Of a stretch of 64,000 bases of DNA, positions 2,885-57,107 are shown piece after piece. Position 1 is the first letter of the stretch. The number at the start of each line of letters is the position of its first letter. The stretch spans positions 1 to 64,000 of the forward strand of contig VXCM01000300.1 in assembly GCA_014773175.1 (NCBI GenBank), given 5' to 3'. The notes below the pieces were generated by a model. It was not told the origin of the DNA. It ran no database searches and worked only from the letters and a program-made list of their open reading frames with translations. This DNA comes from Lucifuga dentata (Eukaryota; Chordata; Actinopteri; Ophidiiformes; Bythitidae). The position numbers were made by a program, and so were the translations under genes.

Positions 2885-22789
<19,905 letters not shown>

Positions 22790-43366: not shown

Positions 43367-43660
43367 CTACTGTGGCTGTGACTTATTGCGATCAGACAAA
43401 CTTTCAGCTCTGAGCTGCTGCTGCTGCTGTTTCTGTTGCTGTAACTACTTCTTCTGCTGCTGTTGTAACTGTTGCTGTTGCTGCAACTGCTTCTGCTGCT
43501 GCTGTAACTGTTGCTGTTGCTGCAACTGCTTCTGCTGCTGCTGTAACTGTTGCTGTTGCTGCTGTTGCGTTGCAGTAGTGAAGGGGCCTTGCTGCTGCAA
43601 AGGGAACGCTGCCTGCAGGATCAACTGGGTGGACTGGTTTCCGTGGAGGAGCCGAGGAGC
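43367..43660 (-). CDS. clock: clock terminal exon: polyglutamine tract with internal TAG and conserved tail
   Basis: Starts [20 protein letters not shown], well conserved in CLOCK, then enters a Gln/Lys/Leu tract built from a 39-bp unit. In the third unit the frame reads AAG-AAG-TAG, placing a stop at 43447-43445. The same frame then runs 25 more codons ending RAESLSDRNKSQPQ and TAG at 43369-43367; this resembles the usual vertebrate CLOCK C-terminus as I recall it. Either this allele loses the last 25 residues, or the TAG is a polymorphism or a sequence error in a hard repeat. The CDS entry for the gene stops at the first TAG. Confidence 0.85.
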
Positions 43661-46600
43661 CTTAAACCAAAACAGTAAAGTTAGTGGGTAAGAGGGATGT
43701 TAAGCTTTTATCACATATAAAAGATATCTGGAGCTTGTTAACTTTTCTTGAAATTTAAATTTTTTTTTACCATACTTTTGGTTTGGTTATTTTGAATAAC
43801 CAAAAAGTTGAAAATCAGATTTAAAGGACAATACCTGCAATACCACATACATGTTACGTTACTGACAACCATTTCCCAAAAATTAGCACTGGAGCTGTAA
43901 ATTTTAAAATTTTCTTCCTACCTTCCAGACTGTCACTTCATTCCACTATGCTATTAAAATGCAGAGACTTGAAAAGTGCTTTGAGATAAATAATGCATCA
44001 CAGCAAACACTATGTCTATAAAAAATATTTGTCGAAGTAACTTTATTTAACTGTCCAACATGGAGCTGCACATAACACAATGTATGTCTCCGCCAGAGAA
44101 TCTAGTTACAAGAGAAGATGGCTTTTACCAAAAAAGTAGAAACAACCTTTCCTTCTACAGTTGGACACATGTTTTGGCAGGTGAAACATTTGATTTTAAG
44201 GGGGCTGTATCACCTGAACATTTGATTTTGACAAATTAGGAGATTTGGCAAAAAAACAGGAAAACAAAGTATGGTTTTATATTTTGGAAAATGTTTGTCT
44301 GTAACCTAATATGTATGCAGATAGTATTTATTGGGCTTAAACATGCAAAATTGCCAGTATTGCCTTTTAAAACGTAACAGAAAATACCATATACAACAGT
44401 ATCTGTGTGGATAAAATAAAACATTTGCATTTGCATTGTTTGGGTTTATGTCTTCCTAGGAAGACATATTTGCACAGTTAGCAGCTCATTTACAATGTCC
44501 CTAGTATCCCTTTTACTTTCCACTCAGAACTGTCCTCTCCTCTAGATGATCTCATTCATCCCTGTGAATGACCTGTGATGGTCACCTGCAGGAACTGTGT
44601 TTGCTGCTGGCTCAGAGTGGTCTGCGCTGTCTGCATGGCTGCGGCCTGTGAGTGTGTCTGTCCCTGATGCTCCTGCTGCTGCTGCTGTGGCTGCTGGGAG
44701 ATGCTGATGGTTTGGGTCTGGCCCTGCTGAGGAGTGAAGGCCGTCACCACTTGGCCCATGAACATCGTTGTGGGGACCATGACCGCCCCACACGCCATCT
44801 GACCTGTCACTAGCTTGGTGAGCAGCTGAGGACCGGTGGGAAACCTGTCAGAGAGGAAAGGGCAAACGTCAGGCTGGAGAAAGTGAATCATGTGAGGTGG
44901 CTTTGGACTAAAAGTTCAGAACTAAATTAGAAATTATTTTACCCAGAACAATCTGGAATACCAACTATGTGGTTCCTTCAGTGATGACATCAACACTGCG
45001 ACAGCCGAGTGATTTCCACAGACACACAGCTAACTTTCAGTAACAATTCCTCTTCCACAGGGACCACAGTCTTGTTTCAGTATTTAATTTTTTTCTGCAC
45101 AGCTTTGCATTTTGAGTAATTGCGAGATCAGATAAATCTGAAACAGCAAGATCTTTTTCTTTAGCTGAGTGCAAAAAGCAAGCTAAATGTAAGTATTTTA
45201 AAATGTTGGCTGTCCACTGAGGAAGCTTGCATCAGGACAATTAGTGATGCTCTGTCTTGTGTTCTGAGCTACACCCAGCAGTTCCTGAACCACTGAGGAG
45301 TACCTACCCATACTAAAATATGTATGTATTTATTTATTTATTTAACAAAAAAAAAGAATCCACCAGGAATCATTTTCAAATCATTTACAGGAATCAAATG
45401 GTTCCTGGTTCCTTAGAAACAAAGGAAAGTTCCTGCATTCCTGGAAAGATTTCTGAGTTCCTGAAAAAGTTCCTGCACTGCAAAAGGAATACATGAGCTT
45501 TAGTTTTGATGTGTACAGTGGTGGAACTGTGTTGTAGAAATACCTGTACTGCACCAAATAATAGTAGTTGGCAGCTTAGCGGTATAATGACCCTTTTTTT
45601 TAGCAGGAAAAGACACTGAATCACGATCAGATAACAAAGCACTGTCGTTGCCCATACTCTCTGACCTTTGACCTGTCTGATAAGGGGAAAAGGAATTGTG
45701 ATCCCCGTGGATTTATACTAAATGACAACAAATTCACTTAAACTGTAACTATGAAAACACAGTGACTTCGTATGAAGATGCAAACCTAATCTGAGCCGTG
45801 CGGTCCTGTGCAAACGTAGCCACAGCGGGAGTGTTGTGGCCGGTGTTCTGGGTCAGGCTGGTGGCAATCTGGACCACGTTGGCTGGGCTTTGCTGACGGA
45901 TCATCATTGTGTTGTAGAGAGACACGGGCAGTGGATTTTGCTGAGGCTGCAGCGTGAGGGACGTTCGCTGAGGCTGAAATACGCAGAACCAGAAAAAGTG
46001 GCAAGATCTATAGTGTGGCGTTAAGGTGAGAACAAAATTAGCCAAAAATGTGTTGATTGTTTCAGACAGCAAAAACGAGAAGTATTTTCATTTATCCAAC
46101 CTGTGAGAGTGCTGCGCTCTGGAGGCTTTGTTGCTGAGATTGTGGCTGAACGGCATGTTGTTGTTGGATGGTGTTCTGTAGCGTCCCTGCAGAGACCATT
46201 TGGCCCGGCATGCTGAGGGCGCCTCCCTGCTGCACGACATTCCCCTGGGCCATCTGAACAGAGCCGAGATTTAGTCCTGCAGCCCCTTGCTGCAAGAGCA
46301 TCTGCAACATAACAACACAAATTATGCTTCTGTCTGTTTTTTAAGGCAGACAATTACGCAAGGAAAAATCCTAATATACACAAATACATCCTTAAACAAA
46401 ATAAGCAAAACTAAGCTAAGCTAAACTAAAATAAGCTAAGATAACCGAAGGCAAAACAAGAATCAAAATGGCCGGTCTTACCTGCAGGCTCTGTCCCTGC
46501 ACCCTCTGCAGCTCGTCCTGGATCTGCCGCAGCTCGTCCTGCTGCCGCTGAATGTTGGTCTCGATGATCCTCGTCCTCTGCTCCAGCTGCTCTTTCAGGT

Positions 46601-47803
46601 GATGCATGGCGTCTAACTGGCTGGAGAACTGCAGCATTGGCTGTCAAAAAGCAAAGACGTGGGAGCATATCAGCAACTGAAATGGCACTTCATTTAAAAA
46701 AATGTTTAGTAGTGCTAGTGAAGTTTACACAAACTGCCTGTTTCAGACTGTAAGTAGACTGAAACTGGAACCTATTGCAGCTTTCTTCTTCAGACTAGGC
46801 CTATCCTATATTTGAGTATTTTGAGATCATCTTTGTTTTTGCGTAGGTCATTTCTAATTTGAATTGGGGCTGCAATACTCCTGGTACTTTATGTTATGTA
46901 ACAGTAAGGCAGCCTTTAAAGGCCCATACGGCTGATTTTGCATGTTTAAGCCCAATAAATGCTATCTACATACATGTTATATTACTGACAACCATTTTCC
47001 AAAACACAAAAATGTATTTTAGCTTTCATGTTATTTTGCCAAACCCAAGTAAATGACTCCCATTGTCATATGTTCAGAGTTATAAGCCTTCATTTTTGGG
47101 TATGCCATGTAGGCGGAAACTGCTCAAAAAACACCTCAGGCAGTATAGGGTTAAAATCAAATGTTGAGGTGATAAAACCATCTTAAAATTCAATGTCTCT
47201 CCTGCTAACACACGATTCCAAATGTAGAAGGCATGGTTGATTTTAATTTCTCTATAAAAGTCGTCTTCTCTTGGGGCTATATTCCTATACATTTTCTTCT
47301 GTACAGCTTCATGTTGGACCAGTTAAATTAAGTAGCTTCGACAAAAAAATAAGAACGTTTCGTTTGCTGTGATGGATGACTTATCTCACGTTTCAAATCT
47401 GTACAAGTTGATTTTAAATGTGTACTGAAATAACCTGAAACGAATGGCAGCCTGGAAAGTAGGAAAACAAATTTAAAATGTACCTCTATAGTAGTATGTT
47501 TGTTGAAAATGGTTGGGCAGTAATGTAACATGTAACAATTATTAGGCTCATACATGCAAAATCATTGATATGTACCTTTAAAATGAGGAAAACACATTTG
47601 ATAACAAGATAAAGATTAAAAAAAAATCCTCAAAGATAATAACTAGTCCAATGTCTTTTGAATGCAGTATCATTTTTAAATACCATGTGCCTTTAACTCA
47701 GCTTTGTTTAAGTTGACACATCATTTAAATGTGTCAGCTCATTCCCCTAAGAATCTATTCAGGTAGCAGAGATGAGCTGTGACATCACCGCCACGTCCCC
47801 GGA

Positions 47804-47834
<31 letters not shown>

Positions 47835-48174
47835 CAACTAACACAGTTGCTAGGATGGAAAAAGGGGTAGCTGTTACCTGAAGCAACATGGGAGAGATTA
47901 TCAGGTGTGAAATCTGAGCCTGTGAGACCGGCTCAGATCAGCACCTTTATAAAGATGATAACACCCTTTGTGTGCTATCAATTCTTTACAAACAATTATA
48001 AGTTCTGTGGTCTGGTACGTTTTAATGGATGGCTGCATGTAATTCATTTGCTTATTTGTGAAATGTTACTATCATGTTTTCATACTGCTTGACTAAACAG
48101 TTGTTTGCATTGTTTTCCTCTCTCTCTCTCTCTCTCTCCTCCACACCTACTTTATCCTCCTCTGCACATCTTCN

Positions 48175-48220
<46 letters not shown>

Positions 48221-51200
48221 CACACCTACTTTATCCTCCTCTGCACATCTTCGCTTGGCCGATCATCAGTGAAGGTGTACTTTCACACAAACGTCGTCTG
48301 CATTGTTTCAAAAATCAAGTGGTGCGCGACCACGCAGCGACCCTCATTAGCGGCCTCCGCAGTCCCTGTTTTGGCCTAAATTACTTCCTAGGCTCTCTCC
48401 CCAGTAACCAGGGTACATACCAGCAAAGACACTTCCACGAGGCTCTCAGCATTGAAAAATCCTCTTCCCACCCCTTCCACACATTCTTTTCCCTCATAGC
48501 AAGTGACAGGCAGGAGGCGCTGTAGCATAAATCCTGCACCATCATGCTGTTAGACTCGGTGCCTCTTCTGCAAATGCACCTTATCTGATATAAACGTACA
48601 CACAAGCACAGATGCACGCAAGCAACAACCTGCTCGAGCACTTTACTCCACAGCACCCAAATCACATACCCATCCCTTACTATTATAATGGCTCAAGACA
48701 CAATTACACTTTTCTAAGCATCTTCTATTGTGTTTATCACACAGTGGAAAAATAAAATCAGGCCCCTGTGGTGGAATCTGCAGGATTTGGGATGAACGGC
48801 AAAATTTCTGCGTGGCACACAAGACGAGACGATGTCTGCATTATAAATGAATGAGGAAAATATCTTACTTGGCTGCTGGTCTGAACTTGTTGTTGCTGTG
48901 AAACCATGGATGCCGTCATGTTTTGTGTCGTGTTTTGGGAGCTCATAGATTGCTGATGGAAACAGTATCGAAACCAAAATGAAATAAAGCAAAGCAGGAC
49001 AGGGATACACAGAGAACAAGTTCTTTAATCTATTTAACAAGTTCTCTCATTTTTACATAATTATATATATAAATTATAATTTTTATATAAATACATAATT
49101 TTTATAATTTACTGAATAATTTTGACAATTTTCTAATTTTTTTTATTTTTAAAACTCGTTTCAAGTGTTTAAATGGTCTGGCTCCAGAATCGGTGTCTCA
49201 GCTCATTAAACAGAAAGATTATAGTGGGAATATGACAAGAGGAGTAACTAGCTAGAACTGTAGAGTCCCAATACACAGAACGACTTTTAGCCAATCATCC
49301 TTTTCAGTAAAAGGAACACACATTTGGAACACTTTACCAGCAGAAATCAAGTCTCAAATAGAATTGAAGGTGTTTAATTCAAAAGTCAAACTCTGGCACA
49401 AGCAACAACAGAGATGTGAGCATTAATGAGGTCACAAGCTCACACAAACACAATTTTTATGTCAATTTGATTCTCTATTTTAATGTGTATTTTGTATGAA
49501 TTGTATAATTGTTTCTTATTGTATAAATTGTTTTATTGTATTTAAAAGCCTGACCAGGGACAAGGACTGCAAATTAGCTTAANTATTGTATAAATTGTTT
49601 TATTGTATTTAAAAGCCTGACCAGGGACAAGGACTGCAAATTAGCTTAATCTAGACGCCTTATACATTGCATTTTCCACATTTGTCTTTGGCGATGTTGT
49701 ATGTATTCGTCCCCGCCAAATAAACAATAAATAAGTAAATATCAGTAAGTTAATCCCTCCAGATGAAGTACATAATCGCAGCTCCAGTGACTGACCTGAC
49801 TGCTGATAGATGATCTTCGTTGTGACGTCATCTCAATGGCAGAGACAGACTGGCGTCCCGGCGTACTGCTGTCTCCCTGAAGCTTCATCTGTGATGCTGA
49901 GGAAAATATAAACATGTAGCTCTTGGTATAAAATAATTTTAGACACGTTGATTCCCTTTTTTTAGGGTGTCAGCGTACAAAATGGCGAGCATGCTTACAT
50001 GCTGGATCAGACACAGCTGTGTGTGAGGATTTGCGTGAGCTGCGAGAGGAGGCGGAGGGAGTGTGACTATGGTCGAAGCGCTCCAGAGCCTCCTTCAGGC
50101 TGGAGGTGTTGAGCTGGGACTCGGACCCAGAGTCCTGAGACTGCTGTGAGGAGACAGAACTGATGGTCAGTGTCGGTATTACAAGATATTATTACAGATT
50201 ACTGATACATCAGCTCTTATTAAAAAAAAACAAAAAACTTACCTGACACACCTTATCTACTGTGATTTCAGGCGGAGATTCTTCAATTCCAAGCTCCCTG
50301 CGCTGTTCTGCTCTAACTTCGGCATAGCTATCAGGCAAAGATGGCAAATTAAATACACACGTGGCATCTTGATCAAAAAAATTAGACTTTTACTTAGAAT
50401 CTGTGATATTGTTAGCTTCTACATGTAATGTTACAGCATTCCTCCTTTTTGCACCTGCTCACAGTGAATCCTTCATGTACCTTACAACAGTGTGTGTGCA
50501 AACGATGAACTCTGGTCTGGAGTTCCACTGGTGGTAGGTGATGTAGTAGTGGGTCTGAAGCCAAATCCACTGCTGCCCTTTGGTGAGGAATCTGTAGTAG
50601 CATGACTTTCCTTTGCCATACTGCATTACTGCAAAGATACAAGGAGCTGACTGACTTTCACAGTTTGGGAAAAAGAGGCAGCTGACAATGATTCATAAAC
50701 TCCCTGAAACGTTGCATGAATCTCAAGAAAGTTTCCAAAAAAATGCAGAAAAAGAAAATGCCAAATCAGCGTTTCCATTAACTACAGATTCTTATGAGAA
50801 AACAGAAAGATCATATCATTAAAAAGTCACAAGAAGCTCATTTTCATTGTTGCTTCCCACCTAAGATGTCACTTATGCTACTTTAAAGAAAGAATGTCCC
50901 CCTCTCCACATAAGGAGTGTAAAGTTTTAGTCCAACAGAGATTTGATTCAGTTATTTTATGAAAGATTCAATAATTCCTAAAATCTCACATTCTGCTTAG
51001 TTTGATTTGACTGTATTCCGTAAATTTTGCTTCTTTCAAAAAGTACAAAAACTCTACAAGGGAAAGTTGTAAAAAGCAACTGAAGCGTTTAAGTAAACAA
51101 TAATTAAAGACATCTTGTTAGTGTGTCTGAACATTTTCAGCAATTTCATTCTTTCTTCCATCTGAGCTCTGCACAATAACCTTTTCTAACTTCCCTGTCA

Positions 51201-54200
51201 AAACCAGAGCTGTTGCAGTATTTATTAGCTTTGTTAACTGTGTTCAGTTTGTAGAAACACCTTCTTCCATTGTGAATGGATCGACATTCCACTTTCTACT
51301 CGCTTCAGTGTTTCTTACACCTCCACACACACCCTGTGGTGTTTTTTTTTTTTTTNTTTTTTTTTTTTTGGTCACAAGAGTTTTATTCTTAATTTTTCTT
51401 TGGGGGTGTATGTGGGGTGGGGGCTTGTAACAGTGGGTGGCAGCAATGCGCTGATGCTGTGTGCGCAGAAAGAAAAAGCAGGTACCACAATGTTCTCTTT
51501 ATTAGAAAATAAAGTTTCTGTCAGATTTGATGACATATTCGTATTTATAGACCAAATTTTCCTCTGTAAAGCATAAATACATTCATGAGATATTTTCCAA
51601 ATGGCTTAAAGCGTGCTTCTGACAGAAGTGTACTCACAGTGTTCATGGCATTTGGCCAAAGTCTCCAGGTCGTCTACATGGTAGTAGTCATATCCGGATG
51701 TACCCAGTACCTCAAACGGGAGGTAACCGATAATGGGTGGAGCTCTGGACGTAAATACATGACAATGTCAGTGACAAACTATCTCCTATTGAAAAGTGCA
51801 GATTGTCCTGTAAATAAGTCTAATGTAAAGCCTTTATATAGGAGTGTAACTGTTACAAAGTTTTCACAACAGCAGAAAATTTAAGTGCTCTAGCGCTGCT
51901 CCCAAAGGGCTCAGAAAAAAATTCCTAAGGAGAGCAAAGAGCTTCACTGACTGAGGCAAGAACTTATCAAACCGACATGGAATTTGAGATTATTTTTGAT
52001 ATGCTTGGCAATAATTAGATTCGTTTGCAATTTTTAAGAAAAAAACTGGCCCATCATGACTGATCAACAGACTCCACCCACCATCCCACCTATTAAAATA
52101 TGTAATGTAATGTAATATGTAAAATATCTAAAATATGGACTCATGCACAACAAAGGTATTAGAGAACTTCAGCCAATATTTGAAATAAAGTTGGTATTCG
52201 CTAAATCAAGTGATACATATTAATAAAAATATCAGTTACTGACAATGTTTTAATGTTGTCTATACATAAGTGTCACATCAGCACATTTGAAGTTTTAATA
52301 TCTCCAACAAACTCCTTGAAGATAATTACTCTAAGTCAACTTAGTGATGATTTTCTGTGCTACTTCCGTACTAAATCTACGACTAATGTTAAACAATCAA
52401 TAACGCGAGTCAGAGTCTGTTTCTGAAGCCATTTTCCTCTGACACACATTTTTCTGAAAGATGTGAGAATTGACCAATCCACTGAGTCTTTACAAGCGCT
52501 ACTGAATAATGAGTGATCCTTGATAAAGTCTTACGATCTAAAAACATATTAAATTTCAAAAAAGAGAAAAACATACATAAACAAAAATATATTTATCTGA
52601 AAATTTGAGACAATATTCTTTTTGAGGGGGCATCTATAAATGCAGTAGAAAGTATACCTGTGGTCCAAGAAGAGAAATTTCCACTCTAAACTATGTCTGG
52701 AGGTGAATTCCTCATTAGGCTCTTCCACTGTGCACATCTCCTGTGGACAACAGAGAAAGGGGTGCAATGAGTCATTTTAAATCTCCAAAGGAAAGATATT
52801 TTTAATCAGATAGGGCCCAAAAGTAACGTTTCAAGATGATGTGAGACCAGCAACCCAGCATCAGCTTCAGCTTCAACTTTTGGTTGCCAAAGTTGACAAA
52901 GTTGTTGCCACTTTGTTTGTTGTTACAGTGTCAATGGTCATGTTAAATTATATGCTATAGTTCTGTAATGGAAAAAGTGGAAAAGAAAAGAACACATACT
53001 AAACATTAATTTCGTATTCTGTTACACTGGCAACGACAAAATTCCAAGTTTTGATGAAGTTTTGTTTCTCGGTCATTTAGGTTCAGTTGTCTCGGTACCA
53101 CTACTAATATGAATAATATAACAACATGAATGATAGGTCTTCATTTACATCACGATTTTTCACACGAGCAACTTGTTATGTTACCCGAATTGCTCAGCCC
53201 TTTTTCACACTAATTTTCTGTCGTTTAGCCGTTTCTGAGGGCGAGATAATTCTTACTTTGATAAACTGTGGCTTGGCTAGCCTCACAGTCGCTACGAGAC
53301 ACACTCTGTCTTCACAAGCAGAGTGAAGCGATCGCTGGATCACTCCTTCAAAGCCATTTCGGGTACAGTTAGGCACTGAGGGAGAACAGAAGAAAAGACA
53401 AATTCAGCCTTACAGCCAGGAAAACACAATTCAAAGCACAGAGGCTGTTTTGCATGACTCACCATTATTCAGGGACTTGAAGTTTCCAATGAACTTCACG
53501 TATTCATACACAGGGGGCTCTTTGGGGTCGATTGTCCCACGGACCATGTGGCAACAGAATTCTAACTGATTTTTTGCTGAAAGCAAATGAGCAAATGTGT
53601 TAAACGTTTAAGAAATGGCACCAAGGTCCAAAGAGGAACTTAGTATCTATTCACACAGGCTGAATAATTACAACAATATAAGACTACAATATAGTACTCA
53701 AATGTACATGCTGAGATACAAATAAAAGACTCAAGTGAAAAAGCTGCAGCACTTACTTTTCAGATATTCAGGCGTCAGTGTCTCTCCATCCAGTATATAA
53801 GAGGACAGAGTTTTGTATATATCTGAATGTTCTCCCATTGGTAGAAAATTCAGCAGGTTCTGATCTACAAGATCAGACTGAAAGGCATAAAAAATAATAG
53901 CTGTAGCACAACTGAATCTACCAGCAGCTACATATCTTAAGTGTATCAAGAAATAACAAAGCAGTAGAGCAATACTGTTCATCCATTTGTGGCCACTATT
54001 ACAGAACATTCATCACTTTTTTTTTTCAGTATATAAATTTTAGACCATAATTTTTTTTTCCCCCAGAATATACGTAAATTAAGTCATGACAGTTCCACTT
54101 CCCTCTGATTACTCAAATTATTCTGAAAAGGCAATGCTGCCTCCGTATTAATTCGTTAATCAGAACTACATCATATTATACTTACAGGTAAGTGTTCCAG

Positions 54201-57107
54201 CAGGGAAGTCACACTCTCAGACACATAGATAATATTCCCATCTGTCATAATTGCAAGGAAAAATCCATCCAATGCCTGATACAAACAAACAAAAACATTC
54301 TTATTTTACTTTTATTTCGAAATGTAAAAAAAGAAAAAAAAAGGAAATGACATAGAAAACTACTGCACTCCACGTTTAACACCCTGCTACCAGCTCACCT
54401 CCAACATCAGCTGCGTGAACTCTTCATTACTAAGGAAAGGAGGCTTCCAGTCTTGTCTGATCTCTGTTGATTCAGACTGAGCAGCAATTTCTGATGATTA
54501 AAAAAAAAAAAAAAAAAAAAATNTTTTTTTTTTTTTTTACCTTTGTGTTTGTGCAGAAAGTCGATGCTGTTTTGCAAAATAGCAGACTTGTCCATCTTCC
54601 GGGTGTTGCCCGGCAACATGGTACCCAGCTCCTTGATAAGGACATTGAACTGGTCTCTGCGCTTCTTTTCAGATTTGTTACGGGACACACTATGGATTAA
54701 CACATTAAAAAAAAAATAAAAAGAAAAAAGAAAAATTCTATTAACTACCCACTACAATCTGGGCGTTGGTTAAATTTTCATTAGCAATTTGCACTAATGT
54801 CACTGTCATAAAAGGCAGCAATTCAATTCAATTTGTGTGTGACTTTCTCTTTTTGTCCACATTGGACAAAAAACATTCAAATTTTTGCAAATAAGCCAAA
54901 TTTACATAAAATCAATGGAACTGTGCCCCTACTGTATTTTTACAACAAATCTTTGTGTAATAATCAAACAAATATATAATTATTGTTCCATAAAAACTAA
55001 CATTGTAATATCTGTTTTTATCTAATCTGTTTTTTTTTTAATATTCCTGGAAATATTAATTTCTGTGTTTTCTTAATGCTAGTATGTGACTGAATGTCTT
55101 TTATCCAAGCACAACGTACAGGGATCTTACCGTTTTGCTTTATCTTTTTCATCTTCTTCCATTAACCCATCAAAGATAATGCTGTCATCCCTGCAGAGTA
55201 AACAAACTACTGATTAGACCAAAACCATTAAGCAGGATTATGGCAACATTCAAAACTTAATTCCATACCAATCAAGACCTATCAATGGAGCAGGTTTGAC
55301 ATACAGTATATACAAACATACTGTACATATATATGTCAACAAGAAACACAACCTGCCAGCTTAATAATTGGAATCAACTGGGTTAGATGAATAAAAAAAC
55401 ACAAAGTTAGAATACAAAATACCACATGGGCTATTTTGCTGTGGGTGTATGACAACAGCAAGTCAGTATTGTACACCATATCATGACCTGTAGGCTCACC
55501 TGCCTCTGCTCAGACTATAAGTCAGAAGTCTTGATAGTATTTCTTCCCATTCAAAAGCCATTCAGATCTCCAAAAAACACCTGAATACCTGAGAAAGGAT
55601 TTTAGTGATGCATCTATCTATCTGCTAACACTGAACATAATGAAGCACCACAATTCAAGTTAGAGACAGAATAGTTAAAAGGTAAATACCAGTATCCATA
55701 CATATGCAGATGAGGCTTTGCAGTCTCTGCAAAGCAGGCTAATCGTGACAAATGGTGATTAATTTGTCAGCTCAGGGCTAGACGCAAACCGGTCAGCTTT
55801 TATTTTTATTTGGCAAGTCATCATCTATGCTGTATGACCGTAAAGGAGCCACATCATCAGTGGGGTTCCTCACGTTGGACTACTACTACTGTGGGTGGAG
55901 TCAACATCATGTTAGAGGTTAACTTTTTTTCCTACATGGCACACAGTGTATGGATGGGTTTTCCTCTTTTAATCCAGGCAATGGTCAAAGGAGCCAATAA
56001 TTACAGATCCAGAGAGTAAATGGTTGTTAATCATTAATCATTAATTCTAGCAGCAGTAGACATAATAATCTCTCTCTTGCATGTTAAAAATACTCAAACT
56101 GTGTGACTTCTTGAGTCCTGTGATCACCCCCCTTCACTTAGCTAAACTAAAAGAACTCCCCTTACATGAGGTCACATTCATTTGTTTTCAAGCCACTGCT
56201 TTAGAGCAGCTCTAATGACAGCAGAAAGACAATCAAGGTCACTATTTACTCCAAATGAAGAGTTGGTCAAAGAGTCTGAAACAATGGAAATCTCCTTCCT
56301 TCCTGACTGAAGGGCTGCATCTCCCACTTTTTGGAACCTTCTGGGTCATTCAATTCTGATCGCCATGTTCATCATGAACAGAATATGGAAGTTCAAGTGC
56401 CACCTGCTGCTGAAACAGAAGCAAAGTGTCCAGTTTTTCCTTATTACATTATATTTATAATCCAAATCAGATCTGCTCTCAACACTTGCTGATGTAAATT
56501 ACAGTGTTTTCAATCAACAGAGGTTTGGAAATTGATCAGATGTTACATAGCCAATACTAATAAGTGAACAAAAATGCCTTAATCAATGCTGATCCTGCAG
56601 GTTGGGACATTCATAGAGGAAAGCTTCTTCCTCCATCTCCTGTGGTTCTCAAGCCTTTATTGCTAAATAAAAGCTATGAATTAACACTGAAATGATGACT
56701 TAATTAATCTATTAGTCAACTGACAGAAAATGTATCAATTTTCCTAAGAAATTATTCAATCAAGTGATAATCAACTAAAGAATTGAATCCATTAATTCAA
56801 TTATTTAAATTTTTTAACAATGAAAATATAAGCATTTTGAAAGCTTCTCAAATTTGAGAATTCGTAGCCTTTCTGTATTAGATATAAAAGGAAATTGAAT
56901 ATCTTAAGATTTGTGGACTGAGATTGAAAAAGTAATCTGAAGACATTACTTTCTAGTAGCTTGTGATAGGCATTTGTCATTAATTTGATGCAATAAAGAC
57001 TAAAACTAACCAATTATTAGCAAAATAACTGATGAGATTTTTTCCCGAGTGGTCGTGTATCAAAGCCAGATAAAGTGTTTAACTCACCGGTCAATACTAG
57101 AGGTCAT
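43445..57107 (-). CDS. clock: CLOCK circadian bHLH-PAS transcription factor, 20 coding exons
   Basis: Nuclear activator that pairs with BMAL1 on E-boxes to drive per/cry genes. Exons 5' to 3': 57088-57107, 55131-55190, 54541-54689, 54399-54490, 54186-54275, 53757-53877, 53463-53576, 53257-53375, 52658-52740, 51638-51744, 50481-50628, 50243-50327, 49999-50143, 49796-49896, 48869-48952, 46482-46640, 46101-46301, 45786-45973, 44586-44844, 43445-43660. All phases agree; 2,541 nt gives 846 residues to the first stop, or 872 to a second stop at 43367. The N-terminus [16 protein letters not shown] resembles the short N-terminus of fish Clock. Teleosts carry duplicated clock genes; I cannot tell clocka from clockb here. 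Confidence 0.95.
43447..43562 (-). repeat. 39-bp coding tandem repeat in the clock polyQ tract
   Basis: Unit of 13 codons, TTA then four CAG, AAG, CAG, TTG, then CAG/CAA codons. Two near-identical copies, then a third, diverged copy in which CAA replaces one CAG and AAG-TAG-TTA replaces CAG-TTG. It encodes [13 protein letters not shown]. Repeats of this kind are length-polymorphic. Confidence 0.85.
43818..44372. mobile_element. Family A element, copy 7, in clock intron 19
   Basis: Left TTTAAAGGACAATACCTGCA and right TTGCCAGTATTGCCTTTTAA; interior words shared with the other copies. Confidence 0.65.
44586..46301 (-). CDS. clock: clock exons 17-19: glutamine-rich transactivation region
   Basis: Exon 17 begins [20 protein letters not shown]; exon 18 contains [18 protein letters not shown] and ends FAQDRTAQI; exon 19 has [37 protein letters not shown] and a Gln-rich stretch, ending QFLQ before exon 20. 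The exon 19 donor is CTGCAG-GTGACC, chosen because it gives the phase 0 junction into [16 protein letters not shown]. Confidence 0.88.
46482..46640 (-). CDS. clock: clock exon 16: coiled coil equivalent to mouse exon 19
   Basis: 53 residues: [20 protein letters not shown] followed by [20 protein letters not shown] and [12 protein letters not shown], a heptad-like amphipathic coiled coil. It corresponds by sequence to the 51-residue segment deleted in mouse Clock-delta19, which binds CIPC and supports transactivation. Exon length (159 nt) is a multiple of three and both junctions are phase 0, so skipping would stay in frame. Confidence 0.9.
46914..47583. mobile_element. Family A element, copy 8, in clock intron 15
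   Basis: Left TTTAAAGGCCCATACGGCTG and right AAAATCATTGATATGTACCT with TTTAA flank. About 120 bp longer than the other copies, with an internal insertion near 47080-47150. Confidence 0.6.
48119..48252. other. Assembly duplication across single N (48174) with (CT)n
   Basis: The 36-bp unique text at 48138-48173 recurs at 48217-48252, each preceded by a CT run. Confidence 0.85.
48869..50327 (-). CDS. clock: clock exons 12-15: linker and phospho-serine cluster
   Basis: Exon 12 encodes [19 protein letters not shown]. Exon 13 contains [20 protein letters not shown] and the serine cluster [17 protein letters not shown], which in mammals holds regulatory phosphorylation sites. Exons 14-15 are serine/glutamine-rich ([18 protein letters not shown], then [16 protein letters not shown]). 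The exon 13 acceptor reads CACAG-CAG, a tandem NAGNAG acceptor that could add or drop one Gln. Confidence 0.9.
49155..49740 (+). mobile_element. LINE 3' end (reverse transcriptase C-terminus) in clock intron 14
   Basis: Plus-strand text [18 protein letters not shown], then [19 protein letters not shown] and [10 protein letters not shown], is the familiar C-terminal pattern of non-LTR retrotransposon ORF2, with internal stops. It is followed by a non-coding tail (CTGACCAGGGACAAGGACTG) and ends in AATAAATAAGTAAAT. Antisense to clock. Sequence 49584-49649 duplicates 49517-49582 across an N. Confidence 0.7.
49517..49649. other. Assembly duplication across single N (49583)
   Basis: Identical 66-bp copies at 49517-49582 and 49584-49649, inside the LINE tail. 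Confidence 0.9.
50481..54490 (-). CDS. clock: clock exons 4-11: PAS-A and PAS-B domains
   Basis: PAS-A is carried by exons 4-8: [54 protein letters not shown] and [24 protein letters not shown] is carried by exons 9-11: [60 protein letters not shown] and [20 protein letters not shown]. These mediate BMAL1 dimerisation and PER/CRY binding. Agreement with vertebrate CLOCK is near continuous. Confidence 0.95.
54541..54689 (-). CDS. clock: clock exon 3: basic helix-loop-helix domain
   Basis: Encodes [20 protein letters not shown], the DNA-contacting basic region and helix 1, followed by [15 protein letters not shown] and helix 2 [13 protein letters not shown]. Helix 2 differs from the mammalian sequence as I recall it (ILQKSIDFLRKHK) at two positions (K to N, R to H). 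The acceptor side joins CG+T to give Arg; the donor is directly followed by an A/T homopolymer with an N at 54523. Confidence 0.93.
55500..55561 (-). CDS. clock: Candidate alternative first coding exon of clock
   Basis: Inside clock intron 1: ATG at 55561 opens [20 protein letters not shown] and ends in phase 2 at a strong donor AG-GTGAGC. Spliced to the next clock exon (55190) the codon AG+G gives Arg and continues DDSIIFDGL, the exact frame of Clock. This would replace MTSSID with 20 different residues. The sequence supports only phase and donor; it may be chance. Confidence 0.35.

Follow-up and report, generated by a model that had tools for sequence, protein, structure and literature searches.

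Loss-of-function mutations in circadian genes have been sought in dark-living and other fishes. The sequenced Lucifuga dentata, a cave brotula from Cuba, is blind and depigmented (PMC7826195), and a lesion in one of its clock genes is the more interesting because its host is a blind cavefish. Policarpo et al. (2020) retrieved 36 of 42 clock genes, dropped the incomplete ones and reported no loss-of-function mutation in the clock genes of either Lucifuga species; the absence of circadian lesions was also invoked when judging the reliability of L. dentata lesions (PMC7826195). No rule for excluding late stops was found in the sections of PMC7826195 consulted. A later paper with overlapping authors discarded stops in the last 5% of the protein (PMC10983663), and a survey of perciforms based its calls on the central 80% of every reading frame (PMC12154703). 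The latter work, a preprint, lists clocka as lost in sticklebacks and a hadal snailfish (PMC12154703). No prior report of a stop in L. dentata clocka was found in the open-licence PMC literature searched, supplements aside. The stop described here is an in-frame TAG in the last exon of a clock gene, and it plausibly represents a small truncating allele of that gene in a cavefish.

The clock gene and its last exon

The window is the 64,000-nucleotide stretch of L. dentata DNA that was analyzed (contig VXCM01000300.1, positions 1 to 64,000), and the gene lies on its minus strand. The product assembled from the window has 99% identity over 94% of the query to P0001 (LDENG_00052780, Lucifuga dentata), the annotated product. 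The other 119 of the best 120 of 2256 protein matches show at most 88% identity to the assembled product; the best fish CLOCK models fall at 81-88%, and one of these is named 'clock circadian regulator a'. Two other clock-like loci in the L. dentata genome show lower similarity across most of the exons. The minus-strand gene is taken to be a clock gene, and provisionally clocka by best match. P0001 residues 7-775 align collinearly with the window between 55192 and 44586, and a GT-AG solution that yields the P0001 residues was obtained for each of the 18 introns up to the last exon when these were checked singly. No location was found for P0001 residues 1-6 in the window mapping. Matches to Pfam HLH, PAS and PAS_3/PAS_11 exceed their cut-offs in P0001, which thus has the bHLH and two PAS domains of a clock gene. 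These matches agree with the preliminary description, in which the stop was said to spare the DNA-binding and PAS domains and to remove only the extreme end.

Divergence across the gene was assessed in an alignment with 42 other genera, hand-picked from 125 other proteins as one complete-ended model per genus. L. dentata has private changes in 4 of 288 scorable columns (those otherwise invariant and gap-free), and the other 42 genera have 0 to 11. Exons encoding tyrosine kinase and immunoglobulin domains lie at 5844-13614 on the same strand as clock and probably belong, we assume, to a receptor tyrosine kinase such as kdr. A kdr-like receptor tyrosine kinase is a neighbor of clock in other vertebrates.

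Table 1. Positions of the clock features in the window
Feature	Position	Strand	Basis or remark
Last coding exon, up to the ancestral terminus	43367..43660	-	TTTAAG acceptor in frame; orthologue similarity
Q-rich tract, chiefly a 39-bp tandem array	43418..43567	-	Third copy bears the stop
Premature TAG	43445..43447	-	Read directly in the clock frame
25 open codons past the stop, with the conserved CLOCK tail at their end	43370..43444	-	
Ancestral terminus TAG	43367..43369	-	
Remaining mapped clock exons, 18 segments, P0001 residues 7-775	44586..55192	-	GT-AG in 18/18 introns

The reading frame of the last exon is genuine. The TTTAAG acceptor at 43660 joins the exon at 44586-44840 in frame, and orthologues align with the first part of the last exon. 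In this frame the exon encodes an N-terminal part, a Q/K/L tract, the premature TAG, the 25-codon peptide LQQQKQQQQQLRAESLSDRNKSQPQ and the terminal TAG (Table 1). The premature TAG is preceded by AAG AAG and followed by TTA CAG CAA CAG AAA. The in-frame TAG, its exact coordinates on the minus strand, the continuation of 25 codons and the TAG that closes it had all been given in the preliminary description, and the new reading reproduced each of them, peptide and count included. The exon carries a premature in-frame stop, as a loss-of-function allele would. The truncated product has ~775 + 71 = 846 residues in P0001 numbering and loses ~26 of 872 possible positions (~3%). The Q-rich tract is in this product, and the conserved tail lies beyond the stop. 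A promoter and terminator scan of the last exon, designed for bacteria, gave no signal.

The conserved tail and the origin of the stop

A tail-like C-terminal pattern was detected in 109 of the 126 proteins examined, many of which are isoforms of one species; the pattern is loose, and the 109 include one or more false positives, P0024 among them. The tail is present in 42/42 other genera of the alignment, where the models were chosen for complete ends. The tail is thus no chance resemblance, and the counts support the earlier claim that the sequence after the stop is a recognizable CLOCK tail. The refuting case given with that claim, in which related species all have the stop and no conservation behind it, is not the pattern observed in the orthologues. 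Among the 17 proteins without the pattern, P0030-P0033 and P0035 break off within the tail, the end of P0001 is a predicted one, and the others resemble partial or alternative models. The carp models P0056 and P0060 end in QQLQQGF, and such ends may be real. The paddlefish CLOCK P0140 has a similar ending. The tail is retained in the cavefish model P0063 (Garra = Phreatichthys andruzzii). No stated function of the CLOCK tail was found in the open-licence PMC literature searched.

The A-P-H-like residues that precede R in most other genera are missing from the L. dentata tail. At its E, N, K and S the tail departs from the commonest residues, but each of the four occurs at the same place in some other fish, which indicates that the tail, missing residues aside, shows no special decay. 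The N occurs elsewhere only in P0123, RADSLSDRNISQPQ. P0123, a last-exon protein that may belong to an ophidiiform relative, ends like L. dentata in the uncommon RNxSQPQ and carries no stop.

The first two copies of the 39-bp array are identical, and the longest exact repeat is 60 bp. The third copy ends AAG AAG TAG TTA where the other copies have AAG CAG TTG. The L. dentata tract has two KQL units; of the 100 scorable tracts among 120 fish tracts examined, 78 contain no such unit and 22 contain a single one. The 39-bp unit (43448-43567) is judged to be expanded in L. dentata. A single C-to-T step from CAG had been proposed as the source of the TAG, and this origin is plausible. The orthologue motif QKQLQQ(Q)KQ occurs in 9 of 72 distinct last exons, and against this motif the stop occupies a Q codon one C-to-T change from CAG, with an extra AAG. 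The codon relationship on which the proposal was based stands, and the motif is consistent with it. The top-scoring alignment against the repeat unit instead favors a 3-base deletion, which would bring T and AG together to make TAG. Derivation of TAG from TTG in the plain repeat register was rejected, the ungapped alignment scoring worst (38.0 versus 50.4 and 48.0). The ancestral residue was also sought in a global alignment of the 72 last exons, which has a gap at the stop position in 52, Q in 10 and another residue in 10; with 52/72 gaps, the orthologue alignment does not decide the ancestral residue. With 11% of the codons, the last exon accounts for 27% of the nonsense target when transitions are weighted by the ratio of PMC7826195, as converted by the present analysis. 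The CAG/CAA-rich tract is an easy site for a stop to arise, and loss of the tail would be tolerated.

Status and expected effect of the stop

The TAG is probably a real truncating clocka allele of the sequenced L. dentata, and its likeliest status is a real, recent and mild truncation. The evidence for it is one draft assembly (597.9 Mb in 8189 contigs). No N lies within 1.4 kb of the TAG, and the sequence word around it is unique in the window. In the assembly the complete last exon occurs once, a 30-base segment of the tail has a single exact match, and no haplotig with an alternative allele was found. Ranked by span, the next match to the exon is to the second clock gene (74%), with the remaining 136 confined to the CAG-rich part. 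No Lucifuga-like sequences were found among the short predicted proteins retrieved as possible transcript or relative evidence (6 + 48). Many contigs (L025-L031 and others) carry tandem arrays with 67-81% similarity to the CAG-rich stretch of the exon, and the CAG-rich array is apparently a repeat type common in the L. dentata genome.

A stop in the last exon leads to escape from nonsense-mediated decay, and the clocka mRNA should escape for this reason. The expected product is a stable CLOCKa of ~846 residues that keeps bHLH, the two PAS domains and the greater part of the Q-rich end. Pairing with BMAL and binding to E-boxes should be preserved, which would set this protein apart from the dominant negatives produced by large C-terminal deletions. 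The effect of the TAG is probably small and buffered by other clock genes. A second clock locus was found on C873 (P0002 residues 28-215) and C3737 (residues 216-815); the complementary P0002 ranges suggest that the two contigs hold one gene, presumably clockb. Its last exon retains the tail, ending SSHRTDSVSSQPQ followed by TAA with no early stop. One of its 17 aligned stretches has a stop, located where the alignment overruns the exon end, and several exons are uncovered. A third clock-like locus, presumably npas2, is on C639. Since clocka is listed as lost in sticklebacks and a hadal snailfish, trimming of the gene can probably be tolerated.

It is unlikely that the assembly or its consensus is wrong at a difficult repeat and that the fish itself has a sense codon at this site. 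The tract is repetitive, the draft has 18 single-N joints in 64 kb, and a published statement holds that there is no such mutation (PMC7826195). Six of the 18 joints (25531, 49583, 57357, 60374, 63494 and 63868) have unmerged exact overlaps of 62-67 bp in their flanks, and unmerged contig ends of this kind leave artificial tandem duplications. However, none of the single-N joints is close to the TAG, the 60-bp exact repeat of the array is shorter than the 62-67 bp overlaps, the word around the TAG has no second copy in the window, and the rest of the gene is in frame. If the allele is real, its age has also to be considered. Among the protein matches listed there is no named ophidiiform besides L. 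dentata, and the stop might therefore predate the species or be absent from most individuals. Five population groups of L. dentata show strong differentiation (FST 0.46-0.91; PMC4833296). An older terminus, in which the stop or a shorter CLOCKa is common to L. gibarensis or to ophidiiforms generally and is unrelated to caves, would fit this sampling and the missing A-P-H-like residues. It is nevertheless improbable, since the tail is still recognizable and P0123, which has the same uncommon ending, continues to the full tail. Fixation of the stop in L. dentata and its absence from the small-eyed L. gibarensis, with the CLOCKa end trimmed and the rest kept, can be put forward only tentatively. 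If true, the positive limb of the clock would bear a type of lesion left uncounted by surveys that discard late stops, and the allele would offer a natural test of the role of the tail.

Readthrough had been among the options raised in the preliminary description. With a mutation rate of 1e-8 and ~370,000 generations since the release of vision genes (PMC7826195), ~0.28 neutral changes are expected in the 75 bases, and 0.75 in a million generations. An open and recognizable tail is thus expected over this time with or without readthrough, and it does not support that option. Continued production of the tail, through readthrough of the TAG or splicing around it, is accordingly a very remote prospect, even with 25 codons open and a predicted P0001 intron, from ~43607 to 43157, that skips the tract and the stop. 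This intron would drop the tail as well, leaving an end that does not resemble the orthologues, and it looks like a prediction artefact. The deposited P0001 end, EPTTQPG...KRHP from 43155-43048, is predicted and resembles no orthologue. TAG-TTA is not a strong readthrough context, which counts against readthrough. A functional change, in which a tailless CLOCKa would be weaker and would contribute to damping of the clock in darkness, is also highly improbable. Conservation of the tail among fishes, the blind cavefish host and the listing of clocka as lost elsewhere (PMC12154703) are in its favor, but only ~3% of the protein is lost, the literature searched gives no function for the tail, and purifying selection has been argued for most L. 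dentata clock genes (PMC7826195). A real, recent and mild truncation remains the preferred reading of the TAG.

Comparison with known clock lesions

A late clocka stop leaves the published statement of no clock lesions standing, yet it shows what surveys may miss. An allele that naturally lacks the tail, in a genome whose second clock gene has an intact tail, would make the function of the tail testable. The L. dentata gene has the homologous domains, exon order, Q-rich end and tail of teleost clocka, and it stops 26 positions early. Its tract also differs in having two KQL units, where the scorable teleost tracts have none or one. The dominant-negative CLOCKa of zebrafish is likewise truncated at the C terminus with bHLH and PAS kept (PMC5147766). 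That form is without the whole glutamine-rich transactivation domain, whereas L. dentata CLOCKa is without the last 26 positions only, and the zebrafish protein is for this reason no model for the smaller loss. Circadian decay described in per2, the cry genes and stickleback clocka likewise concerns dark-living fish or the same paralogue (PMC7826195, PMC10983663, PMC12154703). Those genes decayed through frameshifts, insertions and losses of many exons, whereas L. dentata clocka is trimmed at its end and is otherwise whole.
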